Below, in pieces: positions 11,727-18,957 of a stretch of DNA of 51,197 bases; position 1 is the first letter of the stretch; every line of letters begins with the position of its first letter. Location of the stretch: assembly GCA_021773645.1 (NCBI GenBank), contig JAJFJU010000014.1, positions 1-51,197 on the forward strand, given 5' to 3'. Both the position numbers and the translations under genes were made by a program. This stretch comes from Gammaproteobacteria bacterium. Its GTDB lineage: Bacteria; Pseudomonadota; Gammaproteobacteria; HK1. The notes below the pieces were generated by a model, which was not told where the DNA came from, searched no databases, and saw only the letters and a program-made list of their open reading frames with translations.

Positions 11727-14700
11727 ATGAATAAAACAGCACGCGTTGATTTGAAGTTGGGTATCCCGGGCTTCAGCTATGCCGACCTTTACCGTCCAGA
11801 ACGTCTCACCGAATTACTACAACACTTCGATGAGACGCTAAATACAGCCGATGACGCGCTGTTTACGCGTTTTAATCACTACCGTGAAAATGGTTCGGAG
11901 ATGGAGGCGCCAGAAGTTTCGAATCTGCTGGTGGCAGTGGCTCCCCATTTGGGAAATTTCTTGGCGACCCTCTTCAAGGTAGAGGACACACAGAAAAACA
12001 GTCGGGAAATTACCGAGCGCGAACTGGAATCTCAGGCGAATTTTCGCCGTGGCGTGGTGGCCGGCACCGCCAAACGCTTTAAGAAGGTCGATGTATCAGA
12101 GTGGGATCTCGCTCAAGTAGAAACACAGATGAAGCTGCTGCTCCAGGCCGGCTTTCTGGATCTCAACCCCGAGCAGGATCGAGAAGATGCCACCATGGTG
12201 GCGGGTGCACGCCTGTTGGCGTTGGCCAAACACTACGAGCGCATAGCGAAAAACAAGGCTGGCGAATACGGAGAGGGCGATCCGGAGCAGGACTGCGCTG
12301 CCATCCGAAGCGCACTGGCAGCCAATACCGAAGCAGCTGCCACCTTTGCCAACTCCCTCGCCGCCGAGACCTCCGAGGACTTTATCGAAGGCCTGATGGA
12401 ATGCCTGATGCGCTGGACCCATGCCGCCGGTGGCAATACCGCCATCAGCGCAACAGTCAAAGGCTGGGCGGCCTTTAAAAGCCCAAGCCGCACCAACTTC
12501 TCCGCCTTACTGCAAACCCAATGCGATGAATCTAGGGGCTACCCGGTGCTCACCGGTCCACTGGCGCTCAACCGCGCTCGTGATGGCTTTGCGCTCACCG
12601 ACCAACGCTATGATGCCCGTGCCATCCACTATGAGGTAGACCGCTGCATCTACTGCCACGAGCGGGATACCGACTCCTGCAACAAAGGCATTCGCAACAA
12701 GGACGGCAGCCCGCGCAGCAATCCACTGAACGTCCCAACCACCGGCTGTCCACTGGGCGAACGTATCTCCGAGGCCAATCTACTCAAGCGTCACGGCGAC
12801 AATATCGCGGCGTTAGCCATGGTCATCATCGACAATCCCATGGTGCCCGGCACCGGTCACCGTATCTGTAATGACTGCATGAAGGCCTGCATCTACCAGA
12901 AGGTGGAGGCGGTGAATATTCCGCAGATCGAAACCAATGTGCTGACTGATGTGTTGTTCATGCCCTGGGGCTTCGAGATCTATAGCCTGCTAACGCGCTG
13001 GAATCCGCTCAATATTGCGCGTCCCGTGGCACTTCCCTACAACGGCAAGAAAGTATTGGTGGTGGGCATGGGTCCTGCCGGTTACACCCTCAGCCATTAC
13101 CTGCTCAACGAAGGCTTTTCGGTTACCGGTATCGATGGACTCAAGATCGAACCCCTGCCCGAGTCACTTACCGGCAAAGCAGGCGAATGCCCGCCACCGT
13201 TACGGAATTTCAGTGAGATCTACGACGATCTCGACACCCGCATCATGGCGGGCTTCGGCGGTGTGGCCGAATACGGCATTACCGTGCGCTGGGACAAAAA
13301 TTTCCTCAAGGTCATCTACCTGACCCTAGCCCGCCGCAACGCCTTCCATGCCTATGGCGGTGTGCGCTTTGGTGGCACTTTGAGTATTGAGGATGCCTGG
13401 GCACTAGGCTTTGACCACATCGCCATCGCCTCCGGTGCCGGCGAGCCCACGGTCATCCGCATCAAGAACAATCTCATTCGCGGTATCCGCAAGGCCTCGG
13501 ATTTTCTCATGGGCCTGCAACTGACCGGTGCGGCCAAGCACAGCTCGCTGGCCAACCTGCAGGTACGCCTGCCGGCAGGGGTAGTGGGTGGTGGCTTGAC
13601 CGCCATCGATACCACCACCGAGTTGATGGCCTATTACCCGGTGCAGGTGGAGAAGATCCTCCATCGCCATGAAATCCTGTTAGCCCGTTACGGCAAGGAC
13701 ACCATCCGCGAGCGCATGGATCAGGAAGATTGCGAGATTCTTGACGAATTTATCGAACACGGCCGTGCTATTCGTGCCGAACGCGAACTCGCCAAGAGCG
13801 AGGGACGGGCACCCGACTTTGCACCGCTAGTAAACAGCTGGGGCGGGGTCACCCTGTACTATCGGCGACCACTGGAAGATGCCCCCTCCTATCGCCAGAA
13901 CCACGAGGAAATCCAGAAGGCCCTGGAGGAACAGATATCCATTGCCCCGTATATGAATCCGGTGGAAGCCACACCTGATGAGCACGGGCATCTGAGCACA
14001 GTGAATTTCGAACGCACCGAGTACCGTGATGAAAAGCTGGTGGGTACGGGCAAACATGTCACAGTGCCTCTGCGCGCCCTGTTCGTCGCCGCTGGTACCT
14101 CACCGAACATCATCTACCAGCGGGAAAATCCTGGCACCTTCGAACAAGACGGCAAGTTCTATCGCAGCCATGATCTTGATAGTTCAAAAGACGGTTTTCG
14201 TCTGGTGCCGGCAGAGCGTACCGGACCACCGAAATTCACCTCCCCGGCCCCCTTCACCTCCTACCAGGAGGTGGGTAAGTACATCTCTTACTTCGGTGAC
14301 AACCACCCGGTCTATGTAGGAAATGTGGTCAAGGCCATGGCCAGCGCAAAGCACGGTTACCCGCATATCGCACGCCTGTTTGAGGCTGAAATAGCGACAC
14401 TGAAAGCCTCGGGGCAAGCGGCACGTGATACCGCACTGGCCAACTTCCAAAGCCAACTTGATGGTCGACTTATCACCACCGTCGTCGAGGTCAATCGTCT
14501 CAGTCCCACCATCATCGAGGTAGTACTGCACGCCCCTCAACAGGCCGAGAAATTCCAGCCTGGACAGTTCTTTCGGGCCCAGAGCATGGAAAGCCTGGCC
14601 ACCACCATAGAGGGCACCCGCCTTGCCTCCGAGGGCATGGCGCTCACCGGTGCCTGGGTAGACCGTGAAAAGGGACTGGTAGCGGTCATCGTGCTGGAAA

Positions 14701-15455
14701 TGGGCAGCTCCTCACGGCTGTGCGCCACCTGGCAGCCGGGCGAGCGCATCATTCTCATGGGCCCCACCGGCTTGCCCACAGAAATCCCCCACAACAAGAC
14801 CATCCTGCTAGCCGGTGGCGGGCTCGGTAACGCGGTGTTGTTTTCCATCGGCAAGGCCATGCGTGATGCTGGCAATCGGGTGATCTACTTCGCCGGTTAT
14901 CGCCTCGCCTGCGACACCTTCAAAACCCAGGAAGTTGAGGATGCCGCCGACGTGGTGGTGTGGGCCGTGGACCCGTTACCCGGCAATGAAGCCATCATTC
15001 CACGCCGCCCTCAGGATCGAACCTTCGTGGGCAATATCATCCAGGCCATGGTGCACTACGCCGAGGGCAAACTGGGAAGTGCCGAGATTCCGCTGGATGA
15101 GGTGGATCATCTCATCGCCATCGGTTCCCATCGCATGATGGGGGCGGTGAAGGCAGAGCGTACTGGCCTGCTCAAGCCCTACTTGAAGAAAGATCCGCCC
15201 ATCGCCTACGGCTCCATCAACTCCACCATGCAGTGCATGATGAAAGGGGTCTGCGCCCAATGCATGTGCCGCCACGAGGATCCGGAGACCGGTAAGGAAA
15301 GCTTTGTCTATTCCTGCTTCAACCAGGACCAGTTGCTGGACGAGGTGGATTTCAATCACCTGGATGGGCGTTTACGACAAAACTCCGTACCGGAAAAGCT
15401 GTCGAATCTGTGGCTGACCTATCTCATGGAGCAGCAGGATATCCCCAGAATCTAG
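11727..15455 (+). CDS. 1242-residue FAD/Fe-S oxidoreductase, NfnB(GltD)-NfnA(PyrK)-like fusion
   Basis: Residues 1-300 are a helical domain I do not recognise. Cysteines C307, C310, C318, C341 and C381, C384, C388 resemble the two-cluster N-terminal domain of GltD/NfnB/DPD proteins; the second set has only three cysteines, so another residue (for example Q391) may be a ligand. A first dinucleotide fold has GMGPAG (447-452) and a second GVVGGG starts at 618. From about 915 comes a ferredoxin-NADP reductase-like module with LAGGGLGNAV near 1029, and a C-terminal cysteine group (C1170, C1176, C1179, C1181, C1197) suited to a [2Fe-2S] cluster as in PyrK/NfnA. It probably moves electrons between NAD(P)H and an unidentified partner; bifurcation is a hypothesis. 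AAAGAAAGG precedes the ATG. First gene of a five-gene operon. Confidence 0.85.
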   Translation: MNKTARVDLKLGIPGFSYADLYRPERLTELLQHFDETLNTADDALFTRFNHYRENGSEMEAPEVSNLLVAVAPHLGNFLATLFKVEDTQKNSREITERELESQANFRRGVVAGTAKRFKKVDVSEWDLAQVETQMKLLLQAGFLDLNPEQDREDATMVAGARLLALAKHYERIAKNKAGEYGEGDPEQDCAAIRSALAANTEAAATFANSLAAETSEDFIEGLMECLMRWTHAAGGNTAISATVKGWAAFKSPSRTNFSALLQTQCDESRGYPVLTGPLALNRARDGFALTDQRYDARAIHYEVDRCIYCHERDTDSCNKGIRNKDGSPRSNPLNVPTTGCPLGERISEANLLKRHGDNIAALAMVIIDNPMVPGTGHRICNDCMKACIYQKVEAVNIPQIETNVLTDVLFMPWGFEIYSLLTRWNPLNIARPVALPYNGKKVLVVGMGPAGYTLSHYLLNEGFSVTGIDGLKIEPLPESLTGKAGECPPPLRNFSEIYDDLDTRIMAGFGGVAEYGITVRWDKNFLKVIYLTLARRNAFHAYGGVRFGGTLSIEDAWALGFDHIAIASGAGEPTVIRIKNNLIRGIRKASDFLMGLQLTGAAKHSSLANLQVRLPAGVVGGGLTAIDTTTELMAYYPVQVEKILHRHEILLARYGKDTIRERMDQEDCEILDEFIEHGRAIRAERELAKSEGRAPDFAPLVNSWGGVTLYYRRPLEDAPSYRQNHEEIQKALEEQISIAPYMNPVEATPDEHGHLSTVNFERTEYRDEKLVGTGKHVTVPLRALFVAAGTSPNIIYQRENPGTFEQDGKFYRSHDLDSSKDGFRLVPAERTGPPKFTSPAPFTSYQEVGKYISYFGDNHPVYVGNVVKAMASAKHGYPHIARLFEAEIATLKASGQAARDTALANFQSQLDGRLITTVVEVNRLSPTIIEVVLHAPQQAEKFQPGQFFRAQSMESLATTIEGTRLASEGMALTGAWVDREKGLVAVIVLEMGSSSRLCATWQPGERIILMGPTGLPTEIPHNKTILLAGGGLGNAVLFSIGKAMRDAGNRVIYFAGYRLACDTFKTQEVEDAADVVVWAVDPLPGNEAIIPRRPQDRTFVGNIIQAMVHYAEGKLGSAEIPLDEVDHLIAIGSHRMMGAVKAERTGLLKPYLKKDPPIAYGSINSTMQCMMKGVCAQCMCRHEDPETGKESFVYSCFNQDQLLDEVDFNHLDGRLRQNSVPEKLSNLWLTYLMEQQDIPRI

Positions 15456-15465
15456 GAGTCTCTCA

Positions 15466-15996
15466 ATGATCGCGATAATGCCACAGCTAAAAGTACCTGC
15501 CCTCAATCTTAAGCTGCTGCCAGAACGGGCATGGCAGCCGAGTGACGATGCACCGGAACACTTCAGCCTGCTGGTGGCCTATCGCGGCCTGCACTGCCCG
15601 ATCTGCAAAACCTATCTGCAGGATCTGGAACGCCATTTGGATAAGTTCCAGCAGCTTGGGGTTGAGGCGCTAGCCTTCAGCACCGATACCAAGGAACGAG
15701 CGGAACAGACAAAGTCGGAATGGGCGCTCGATCAGTTGCGTATTGCTTATGATCTGAGCATTGATGAGGCGCGAGCGTGGGGGCTCTATATCTCCAGCGG
15801 ACAAGGCGTGACCTCCGCTGGTGTAGAGGAACCTACGCTATTCAACGAACCCGGCGTCTTTCTGCTCCGTCCCGACCAAAGCCTCTACGCCGCTACGCTC
15901 AGCACCATGCCCTTTGCCAGACCCCACTTTAATGAAATCCTCGGCGCCCTCGAATTCATTATAGATAAGGATTATCCGGCGCGTGGAGAGGCCTAG
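15466..15996 (+). CDS. Redoxin (AhpC/TSA-like) with CPxC motif
   Basis: The 176-residue protein has the thioredoxin fold of the AhpC/TSA superfamily. RGLHCPICKTYL gives a vicinal pair C44/C47, more like a thiol-disulfide reductase than a classical peroxiredoxin, where the second position is usually Thr or Val. The C-terminal part (EPGVFLLRPDQSLYAA) matches the superfamily. No signal peptide is seen, so it acts in the cytoplasm. It begins 10 bp after the large flavoprotein gene, with GGAG 8-9 bases before its ATG, and could be that enzyme's electron acceptor; this is inferred from position only. Confidence 0.85.
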   Translation: MIAIMPQLKVPALNLKLLPERAWQPSDDAPEHFSLLVAYRGLHCPICKTYLQDLERHLDKFQQLGVEALAFSTDTKERAEQTKSEWALDQLRIAYDLSIDEARAWGLYISSGQGVTSAGVEEPTLFNEPGVFLLRPDQSLYAATLSTMPFARPHFNEILGALEFIIDKDYPARGEA

Positions 15997-16819
15997 AACG
16001 CTAGCAGCCCCCTACTCCAAGCAAGATGCCGCTGACGGACACCTGAGCTCTGCCGGCTCCACCCGGCCGCTACAGCCTGCCCCATCTCCAGCGACAACCC
16101 CTATAGCAACGCGCAACGGGGTCCCGGAATATCTCATCCGCCACTATGGCTGGGCCTATCTATCGCCACGTGGGATGCGCTTCTTTGATCGCCCCGCGAT
16201 CATCAACCTCATCCTATTTGGCCAGTACCGCGTACTCAAGGAAGAAACTCTGCACTGCCTGACCCGCGAAGCGCCGGGTGAGACATTGCAACTCGCCAGT
16301 GTCTATGGTGACTTCAGTACCCGTATGCAGCAGGCTCTAGATAGCCAGCACTTCCATCTGGTAGACGTCCTGCCAGGCCAATTAAAACTCAGCCGCACGA
16401 AAATAAACGCAGACAAAGACGTCTATTTTAGCCAGATGGATGCGGCATCGCTCGCCTATCGTAATGACTCCCTGGACACCATCGTCGTATTCTTCCTGCT
16501 CCACGAACTTCCCCCGGAAGTGCGCGAAAGGACCCTCAATGAATGTCTGCGCATACTCAAACCCGGCGGTCGCCTGCTGATTACCGAATTCGCCTCGCCC
16601 ACGGGTTCTTTTTCCTATCTCGATCCCCGACGGCCCTTACTTGCCCGTGCCGAACCCTGGCTACAGGGATTTCTGGATGAAGATTTGAATCAACGTCTGG
16701 AGCAAATGGCAGCAACTCAGGGGGGAAACCTTATCCGCTCTCATCAGCGTCTGTTTGGCTGTGGCCTCTATCAGGTCAGTGTATTCAAACTCGAATCTCA
16801 GGCTGTCCATGAGTCGTAA
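15983..16819 (+). CDS. RquA-like SAM-dependent methyltransferase-fold protein (rhodoquinone synthesis?)
   Basis: The 278-residue protein has a Rossmann-type methyltransferase core in which the usual glycine-rich SAM loop is replaced by ASVYGDFS (106-112). Together with HYGWAYLSPRG (54-64), NLILFGQY and VVFFLLHELP (168-177), this is the pattern I associate with RquA, which converts ubiquinone to rhodoquinone for fumarate-reducing anaerobic respiration. RquA paralogues of other function exist, so the assignment is probable, not certain. The first 45 residues are Pro/Ala-rich and divergent. The start is GTG at 15983, overlapping the redoxin gene by 14 bases; no earlier alternative exists in frame. 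Confidence 0.72.
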   Translation: MERPRTLAAPYSKQDAADGHLSSAGSTRPLQPAPSPATTPIATRNGVPEYLIRHYGWAYLSPRGMRFFDRPAIINLILFGQYRVLKEETLHCLTREAPGETLQLASVYGDFSTRMQQALDSQHFHLVDVLPGQLKLSRTKINADKDVYFSQMDAASLAYRNDSLDTIVVFFLLHELPPEVRERTLNECLRILKPGGRLLITEFASPTGSFSYLDPRRPLLARAEPWLQGFLDEDLNQRLEQMAATQGGNLIRSHQRLFGCGLYQVSVFKLESQAVHES

Positions 16820-18665
16820 GAAAACGCTTTTTCCTGATACCGAAGACGAGGCCATCCCGCGTCAGCACACGAGTCCGTGCTTTGCGGAGCTCCTGGACCA
16901 ACACCTGTCACGACGCCACCTGCTGAAAGGAAGCGCGGCAGCGACCCTTGCCACCAGCCTCCCCAGATCGCTGTCAGCAAGCACTGACCATCCCTCTAGC
17001 CTAGGTTTTAGTGAGCTACCTCACGGTCTCGATAGCCAACTCCACGTTGCCGAGGGCTACGAGAGCCAAGTATTGCTGCGATGGGGTGATCCACTGTTTA
17101 GCAACTCCCCAATTTTCGATCCGGCTCGACAAACAGCAGCAGCGCAGCAACGCCAATTTGGCTACAACTGTGACTTCATCGCCTTCATGCCTTTGGCCAC
17201 GGACGCACAGGGCCGCCACGGCGGGCTGCTCTGTGTCAGCCATGAGTACAGCTCCTCGCGGATGTTTTCCCATAGCCCAAAGTTACCCCCAAAAACCCGC
17301 ACCGGGGTAGAACTGGCTACCCACGGCCACAGCGTGGTGGAAATACGCCAACGGCGTAATACTTGGTCCGTCATTATCAACAGCCCGCTAAATCGCCGTA
17401 TTAGCCCGTTAGACACCTGGATGCGCCTCGCGGGCCCCGCCGCGGGTCATCCCCGTCTGCAAACCACGGCCGATCCCAAGGGAACGCGGGTGCTCGGAAC
17501 CCTCAACAACTGCGCTGGCGGCACCACGCCCTGGGGTACCGTGCTGATCTGCGAGGAGAATTTTCAGGCCTATTTTGGTGGCAAACCCACAGACCGTTCA
17601 GAGCAAAGAAATTATGAGCGCTATGGTATCGGGCCACGGCATCGCTACGGCTGGGCACGCTTTCATCCCCGCTTTGGCCTGGCCCAAGAGCCACGAGAAT
17701 CCAACCGCTTTGGCTGGGTGGTGGAAATCAATCCCTACGACCCAACTTCCATGCCGGTAAAACGCACTGCCCTTGGGCGCTTCAAACACGAAAGTGCCAC
17801 GGTGGCACTGAATCCGGATGGCCGCGTGGTGGTCTACAGCGGTGATGACCAGGCCTTTGAATATCTGTATAAATTCGTCAGCGATGGACACTACGCCGCG
17901 GGTGCAGATACCAACCAACTGTTAGATAAGGGCGTGCTCCACGTCGCGCGCTTTGATGAGAACGGCAGCGTGGATTGGCTGCCACTCATCTATGGGCAGG
18001 GGCCGCTGACCGAAAAGAATGGCTTTACCAGCCAGGCCGAGGTGCTCATCGAAACCCGCCGCGCCGCCGACCTGCTGGGGGCAACCCCCATGGATCGACC
18101 CGAAGGCATCACCCTGCATCCCGATAACGGCCACATCTATCTGGCACTGACCAAAAATCATGCCCGTACACCGTGGCAGAAAAACGGACCCAACCCGCGG
18201 GCGCTCAATCGCTACGGTCATATCCTCGAAATCATTCCCCCTGGAGATAAGGCCGATCACGCCGCCACGGAAGCTCGCTGGGAAATATTTGCGCTGGGCG
18301 GCAAAGGAGCAAACAAAACTTCTGGGCTTGATCCTGCCGGCTGGTTTGCCTGTCCGGATAACCTCGCCTGCGATGCCCGTGGTCATCTGTGGATTGCCAG
18401 CGATGGCGCTACCTCCGCCAGTGGTATTGCCGACAGTCTATGGGCCTGCGACACCCTTGGTCCGGGACGCGCCTTAAGTCGTCACTTCCTACGTGCGCCC
18501 AAGGGGGCTGAAGTCACCGGCCCCTGTTTTAGCCCAGACCAACGCACCCTGTTCCTCTCCATCCAGCATCCGGGTGGGGGCTGGCCGGACTTCAGCCCGG
18601 GCATGCCTGCACGCCCAACGGTGGTAGCCATCCAACATCACGATGGCAGGAAAATTGGTGGCTGA
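16809..18665 (+). CDS. PhoX-family phosphatase (DUF839), Tat-exported
   Basis: The 618-residue protein begins with a long n-region and a twin-arginine signal, SRRHLLKG (R35, R36), followed by an Ala-rich hydrophobic stretch, so it should be folded with its metals in the cytoplasm and exported by Tat. HEYSSSRMFS, NNCAGGTTPWGTVLICEENFQ and HESATVALNPDGRVVVYSGDD are hallmarks of PhoX, a calcium/iron alkaline phosphatase active on phosphate esters. The start at 16809 overlaps the previous stop by 11 bases; an in-frame extension to 16755 lies inside the upstream gene and is less likely. No Pho-box was recognised; being inside an operon with redox genes is unusual for a phosphate-scavenging enzyme. 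Confidence 0.87.
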   Translation: MSRKKTLFPDTEDEAIPRQHTSPCFAELLDQHLSRRHLLKGSAAATLATSLPRSLSASTDHPSSLGFSELPHGLDSQLHVAEGYESQVLLRWGDPLFSNSPIFDPARQTAAAQQRQFGYNCDFIAFMPLATDAQGRHGGLLCVSHEYSSSRMFSHSPKLPPKTRTGVELATHGHSVVEIRQRRNTWSVIINSPLNRRISPLDTWMRLAGPAAGHPRLQTTADPKGTRVLGTLNNCAGGTTPWGTVLICEENFQAYFGGKPTDRSEQRNYERYGIGPRHRYGWARFHPRFGLAQEPRESNRFGWVVEINPYDPTSMPVKRTALGRFKHESATVALNPDGRVVVYSGDDQAFEYLYKFVSDGHYAAGADTNQLLDKGVLHVARFDENGSVDWLPLIYGQGPLTEKNGFTSQAEVLIETRRAADLLGATPMDRPEGITLHPDNGHIYLALTKNHARTPWQKNGPNPRALNRYGHILEIIPPGDKADHAATEARWEIFALGGKGANKTSGLDPAGWFACPDNLACDARGHLWIASDGATSASGIADSLWACDTLGPGRALSRHFLRAPKGAEVTGPCFSPDQRTLFLSIQHPGGGWPDFSPGMPARPTVVAIQHHDGRKIGG

Positions 18666-18957
18666 AGCCAAGACTTCGCCCACGCTCGCTGCTTTAGCGG
18701 ACGGCATGCTTTGCTTCGTGGTGACTGCTGCGGGGGGTTTTGCGGTACTCCTACCCATCGGCCTGCTACTCATCGGGGTGGAATGGGATGGGTTGCGGCA
18801 GCATCTCTGGGCCGGCCTTAGCGATCCGCTCGACTATTGGCGCTGGACCCAATCCATCGGCGATGGATTTACCCACGAACTCGCCTCCGCTTGGGCTGTT
18901 TCCCTGCTATTAGCCCTAATTGCCGGCAGCCTCCGTACCCGTAGGTTATTAGGGTAA
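18643..18957 (+). CDS. Small two-helix membrane protein, unknown
   Basis: The 104-residue product has two clear hydrophobic segments, about residues 23-46 (FVVTAAGGFAVLLPIGLLLI) and 82-97 (AWAVSLLLALIAGS), with a Trp-rich loop between. I recognise no family. Its ATG overlaps the end of the phoX-like gene by 23 bases, which supports it being a real coupled gene. It may anchor or serve the exported phosphatase; nothing further can be said. It converges with aroG, leaving only 9 bases between stops. Confidence 0.65.
   Translation: MAGKLVAEAKTSPTLAALADGMLCFVVTAAGGFAVLLPIGLLLIGVEWDGLRQHLWAGLSDPLDYWRWTQSIGDGFTHELASAWAVSLLLALIAGSLRTRRLLG

Follow-up and report, generated by a model that had tools for sequence, protein, structure and literature searches.

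The window, the whole 51,197-nucleotide stretch of gammaproteobacterial DNA analysed here, carries on its forward strand a compact set of genes that includes one for an RquA-like protein (15983..16819; 278 amino acids, GTG start), the first ~40 residues of which are predicted to be disordered. The set begins with a 1,242-residue flavoprotein (11727..15455) in which GltD-like and PyrK/NfnA-like parts are fused, an architecture that we read as 'Nfn-like', followed by a 176-residue AhpC/TSA-family protein weakly related to SelL (15466..15996). The start of the RquA-like gene overlaps the stop of this upstream peroxiredoxin-like gene, and its own stop codon is overlapped by the likely ATG of a gene for a PhoX-family protein with a Tat signal (16809..18665); across these four genes, neighbours overlap or sit 10 bases apart. 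Downstream of PhoX lies a gene for a 104-residue protein, membrane-like by eye (18643..18957), which also follows PhoX in genome G002 and, after one further open reading frame (ORF), in locus L036. The order flavoprotein–redoxin–RquA-like–PhoX is preserved in all three genomes of the host genus (including G001 and G002), and the initial annotation was right to place the gene inside a redox operon. This operon is genus-specific. Relatives of the flavoprotein are widespread, being found in 69 of 369 genomes of the class at E 1e-100, and the protein scores 616 bits against the nearest NCBIfam model, far below the cut-off of 1,072. In six other genomes examined, the flavoprotein gene does not stand beside redoxin, RquA-like or PhoX genes. 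A flavoprotein partnership as a general rule was considered and is unsupported, because flavoprotein and RquA-family genes occur together in 7 genomes where 6.7 are expected by chance (69 and 36 of 369).

The RquA-like ORF is a real gene. Over the same coordinates, the single reverse frame that was translated contains eight stops, and the gene is present in all three genomes of the host genus, the two other orthologues being 81 and 62% identical to it. Comparison with G002 gave dN of 0.106 and dS of 0.481 (dN/dS ~0.22), and comparison with G001 gave dN of 0.279 and dS of 1.063 (dN/dS ~0.26); the gene is therefore under purifying selection. A search of the host's own genome with the protein returned two further matches, one of them the UbiE gene; both have E above 5e-4, and the gene is therefore single copy. 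No match was obtained in a plasmid search at E 1e-15, and relatives were not found in the viral contigs searched.

RquA converts ubiquinone to rhodoquinone (RQ), replacing a methoxy group with the α-amino group of S-adenosylmethionine (SAM) in a reaction that uses Mn2+. The NCBIfam RquA model NF038261 is the best model for the protein (E 1.1e-50, 172.4 bits, or 172.9 in a second scan, over residues 47–268 of 278), yet the score falls just under the curated cut-off of 175 bits. Relatives in named genomes number at least 538 confirmed records; the analysis retained the best 80, a sample biased towards the query; the nearest among these best 80 are metagenome-assembled genomes (MAGs) titled Gammaproteobacteria, and 14 of the best 80 of at least 538 bear Mariprofundus, Ghiorsea, Zetaproteobacteria or Gallionellaceae titles. 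In 56 chosen genomes, among which G049 and G096 are apparently one assembly, strong matches to NF038261 fell at 225–313 and 157–197 bits, with a gap at 197–225; weaker matches, at or below 119 bits, come from UbiE and other relatives. The same division appeared in a sample drawn evenly from the class: 36 of 369 genomes have a match at E ≤1e-25, 11 at 225–318 bits and 25 at 143–183 bits (three of them the host genus), with a gap at 183–225, and none of the 36 has two such matches. We call the upper group canonical, using the NF038261 score as a proxy. Besides the host genus, the lower band holds a second, larger RquA-like lineage (143–197 bits) comprising Mariprofundus, Ghiorsea, Zetaproteobacteria, Gallionellaceae and other Gammaproteobacteria. 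One Lysobacterales MAG from outside the class sample, G055, carries both a canonical-scoring RquA (L118, 272 bits, on a long branch) and a second-lineage protein (L037, 164 bits), and could be a mixed assembly.

As the initial annotation noted, the glycine-rich GxGxG loop of UbiE is absent, and the atypical SAM motif I VYGDFS (16301..16318, forward strand as for all features here; residues 107–112) stands in its place, with FFLLHE further on (16490..16507; residues 170–175). The His-Glu of FFLLHE is invariant in the canonical and second lineages and is lacking in all seven UbiE sequences compared. Asp128 (16364..16366) and Asp153 (16439..16441) are the probable counterparts of D118 and D143 of Rhodospirillum rubrum RquA, a mapping drawn from invariance and the 25-residue spacing in an alignment without the R. 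rubrum sequence. The available part of the study of that enzyme reports that joint replacement of D118 and D143 abolished RQ8 synthesis and that the first 40 residues are dispensable (PMC9814641). In family, VYGD, the two probable SAM-pocket aspartates, FFLLHE and the disordered N terminus, the host protein thus resembles RquA (NF038261; Neupane 2022, PMC9814641). It retains 28 of the 29 superfamily-invariant columns, defined as those at least 95% identical in both larger groups (46 and 50 rows, including a few identical copies), and 16 of the 17 such columns that none of the seven UbiE sequences shares, the exception being Tyr203, which is Phe.

These comparisons bear on whether the protein is an ordinary UbiE-type C-methyltransferase or some other class I methyltransferase. 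It does match UbiE models weakly (50.8 bits against a cut-off of 216), and it shares their general architecture: an AlphaFold2 model (pLDDT 86.4, confident except for the first ~40 residues) predicts a class I SAM-dependent fold that most resembles Coq5, a quinone methyltransferase, with SAM-bound yeast Coq5 at Foldseek PDB ranks 1–3 (TM 0.56–0.58 by query length). Sequence searches of the PDB gave distant methyltransferases only, with no entry named RquA among the matches listed. However, mean identity is 21% to the seven UbiE sequences versus 34% and 39% to the two RquA lineages, the GxGxG loop is replaced, the His-Glu is not in UbiE, UbiE sequences join the trees far away on a very long branch, and the genome has a separate UbiE gene. 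On the model scores and the residue comparison, we reject an ordinary methyltransferase, which we consider highly improbable, and the relatedness to RquA initially proposed is upheld.

The resemblance to RquA is incomplete at the conserved aromatic positions. HYGWAY, initially listed among the RquA motifs, is present at residues 54–59 but is not quite the RquA motif, since residue 56, Gly in all three host-genus proteins, is Trp in most canonical (86%) and second-lineage (98%) rows. W56G, W231L and F259G are changes specific to the host genus, in which two alignment columns near residue 209 are also deleted. This specific loss of aromatics favours a rival reading, less probable though to be taken seriously, in which an RquA-derived enzyme has changed its reaction, using SAM on ubiquinone, a biosynthetic intermediate or another lipid, and does not make RQ; against it stands the near-complete retention of superfamily-invariant residues, among them the His-Glu that is absent from UbiE.

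At the 20 columns that separate the two larger lineages, the protein is canonical-like at 6 (one a shared gap), second-lineage-like at 11 and like neither at 3. With the second lineage it further shares its score band, an HELP motif and a C-terminal insertion that is missing from canonical rows. By contrast, the canonical-like separating columns include Asp153, where 96% of second-lineage rows have Asn, and Ala105, where 88% have Thr; Asp110 of VYGD, which lies outside the 20 and is Ser in 66% of those rows, is likewise canonical-like, and the neighbouring genes differ from those of the second lineage.

Phylogenetic trees, from which R. rubrum RquA is absent, were used to place the protein. 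For a 62-row tree, its UbiE-free version and the constrained trees, the 46 canonical and 50 second-lineage rows were thinned by 18 and 23, respectively, by removing near copies and long or odd rows (for example L011, L118, L007 and L086). Three of 15 newly added loci lacked a usable ORF and were omitted. Without UbiE, the unrooted tree groups 28 canonical rows at 100/100 and 27 second-lineage rows at 99/87, with the host genus between them. With UbiE, the careful 62-row tree sets the host genus on the second-lineage side at 97/37 and supports the canonical rows at only 20/73. A quick tree with UbiE makes the host genus a third lineage apart from both others, and a careful 71-row tree again separates it from both. 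Approximately unbiased (AU) tests rejected placement of the host genus inside either of two canonical subgroups (p 0.0016 and 4.5e-5). The trees thus place the host-genus protein outside the canonical RquA group, and the membership of the RquA clade initially supposed does not hold. They indicate that the host genus is one of three lineages of the RquA superfamily; it could be the sister of canonical RquA, although the trees disagree on the sister. Both this placement and the score, which lies below the NF038261 gap in each sample, fit an altered reaction, whereas under a UbiE root the tree constrained to unite the host genus with canonical RquA outscores the unconstrained one by 9 log units (p-AU 0.80), which counts against it.

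Genomic context provides a further comparison. Of 54 canonical loci (9 of them second copies of one record), 19 have an FrdA-like gene in the retrieved flank, whereas none of the 51 second-lineage loci (two of them second copies) and none of the 3 host-genus loci has one; the counts are not independent, as 14 of the 19 belong to the Accumulibacter clade and the 19 represent ~5 lineages, and flank lengths vary. At the level of lineages, the contrast is suggestive only; it is in the direction expected of an enzyme that no longer makes RQ. Among 14 genomes from other genera of the same family, two (G006 and G007, both counted among the 19) have a canonical RquA gene ~2 kb from an FrdA-like gene, which in G006 scores over the fumarate reductase cut-offs, in agreement with the proximity of rquA to complex II described in the accessible part of a survey (PMC5953543). 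A pair of UbiU-like and UbiV-like proteins, called by Pfam U32 score, size and neighbourhood rather than by specific models, is found in 6 of 7 canonical-RquA genomes versus 2 of 15 others (p 0.002; p 0.04 after collapsing lineages by hand), the one genome with both RquA kinds being excluded.

The host was examined for the genes that such a system would draw on. UbiA scores above cut-off in all three host-genus genomes; among the five genomes searched, it is over cut-off in neither G006 nor G007, which are less complete and carry canonical RquA. The host's UbiE scores 355 bits, under the strictest cut-off (378) and over the subfamily cut-off, and is adjoined by a weakly matching UbiJ-like gene (59.5 bits, cut-off 275) and a UbiB-like gene that is cut off by the end of the examined stretch. 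MenD is over cut-off in none of the five genomes searched. Judged by gene content, ubiquinone is available in the host as a substrate for RquA. The initial annotation had proposed fumarate reduction with a low-potential quinone and advised looking for a fumarate reductase elsewhere in the genome; that search found one sdhCDAB set, the only other match being NadB. No Pfam U32 protein, and therefore no UbiU or UbiV, was found in the three host-genus genomes. A CtaD-like oxidase subunit is encoded in pieces on two contigs (the fragment scores 604 bits, below the cut-off of 671). A genuine RquA that works in anaerobic fumarate respiration, which the family resemblance and the ubiquinone genes would allow, is accordingly quite unlikely, given the sdhCDAB and NadB result, the oxidase, the absence of U32 proteins from the three host-genus genomes set against canonical-RquA genomes that mostly have the pair, and the same-family genomes in which it is a canonical RquA that accompanies the FrdA-like gene. 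Formate dehydrogenase, NuoG and an arsenite-oxidase-type protein are also encoded in the host genome, all over their cut-offs; the large subunit of the last is L193 (G000:C4:178000-182500).

We tentatively favour, at a little under even probability, the explanation that the host genus carries a third divergent lineage of the RquA superfamily whose enzyme would most simply perform the RquA reaction on ubiquinone. We weigh for it the RquA match, the invariant residues, VYGD with Asp153, the predicted Coq5-like fold, the ubiquinone genes, the operon and the dN/dS ratios, and against it the non-canonical placement, the changed aromatics, the lack of FrdA, UbiU and UbiV, and the chance-level flavoprotein overlap. 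The sequence comparisons suggest that the protein is probably a SAM-dependent modifier of ubiquinone and perhaps a rhodoquinone synthase; RQ production in the host is plausible, if unproven. Under the favoured explanation, the enzyme would bind SAM and act on ubiquinone, and an RquA-type methoxy-to-amino replacement would yield RQ or a close aminoquinone. More speculatively, this low-potential quinone might exchange electrons with NAD(P)H and iron–sulphur flavoproteins, such as the Nfn-like partner; the host seemingly makes ubiquinone only with O2, and anaerobic fumarate reduction would not be the role. When a Desulfobacterota rquA was expressed in Escherichia coli, it reportedly gave no RQ, in data that the source does not show (PMC13386864), and an RquA-like sequence is therefore no guarantee of RQ in that assay.

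In one gammaproteobacterial group, nine distinct loci have a gene for a membrane protein and pyruvate:ferredoxin oxidoreductase-type genes downstream of the second-lineage gene, and in one alphaproteobacterial MAG an NfnA-like gene and related oxidoreductase genes follow it. Together with the Nfn-like fusion of the host, these neighbours are suggestive, no more, of iron–sulphur flavoprotein partners. At L045, L054, L059–L063, L065 and L072, the membrane-like protein downstream of the second-lineage gene carries CxxCH. We consider it rather unlikely, though worth stating, that the host genus and the second lineage are unrecognised enzymes making a low-potential aminoquinone for ferredoxin- and NAD(P)H-linked enzymes or for reverse electron flow rather than for fumarate reduction; if so, the iron-oxidiser titles among the best 80 records would make iron oxidation one setting.

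RquA serves to infer RQ from genomes, and both the host protein and a large lineage score near the NCBI cut-off. Because the scores of the second lineage straddle it, automatic naming as RquA would split that lineage arbitrarily, and because 7 of the 25 non-canonical matches in the class sample pass the cut-off and 18 fail, surveys may over- or under-call RQ. At stake is either RQ chemistry in lineages without fumarate reductase or a second reaction of the RquA fold. According to the portions of published work available, a 2017 survey found rquA in 2 of 2,493 gammaproteobacterial genomes (PMC5953543), and a 2024 study recorded it in a single gammaproteobacterial species (PMC11707229). One gammaproteobacterial symbiont has been credited with a potential rquA (PMC8269255), and work from 2026 infers RQ in 24 orders (PMC13386864). 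Two papers mention both rhodoquinone and Zetaproteobacteria, and the portions available of them do not report RQ in that class. Literature searches for RquA-like or paralogous proteins led to two papers, one on ciliates and one on the RquA phylogeny, and did not find rhodoquinone and Gallionella together. Supplementary tables, which lay outside these searches, may list the second lineage. In Herbaspirillum and Noviherbaspirillum (L115, L116 and L117; G095 and G092), distant RquA-like proteins scoring 108–119 bits occur besides canonical RquA.
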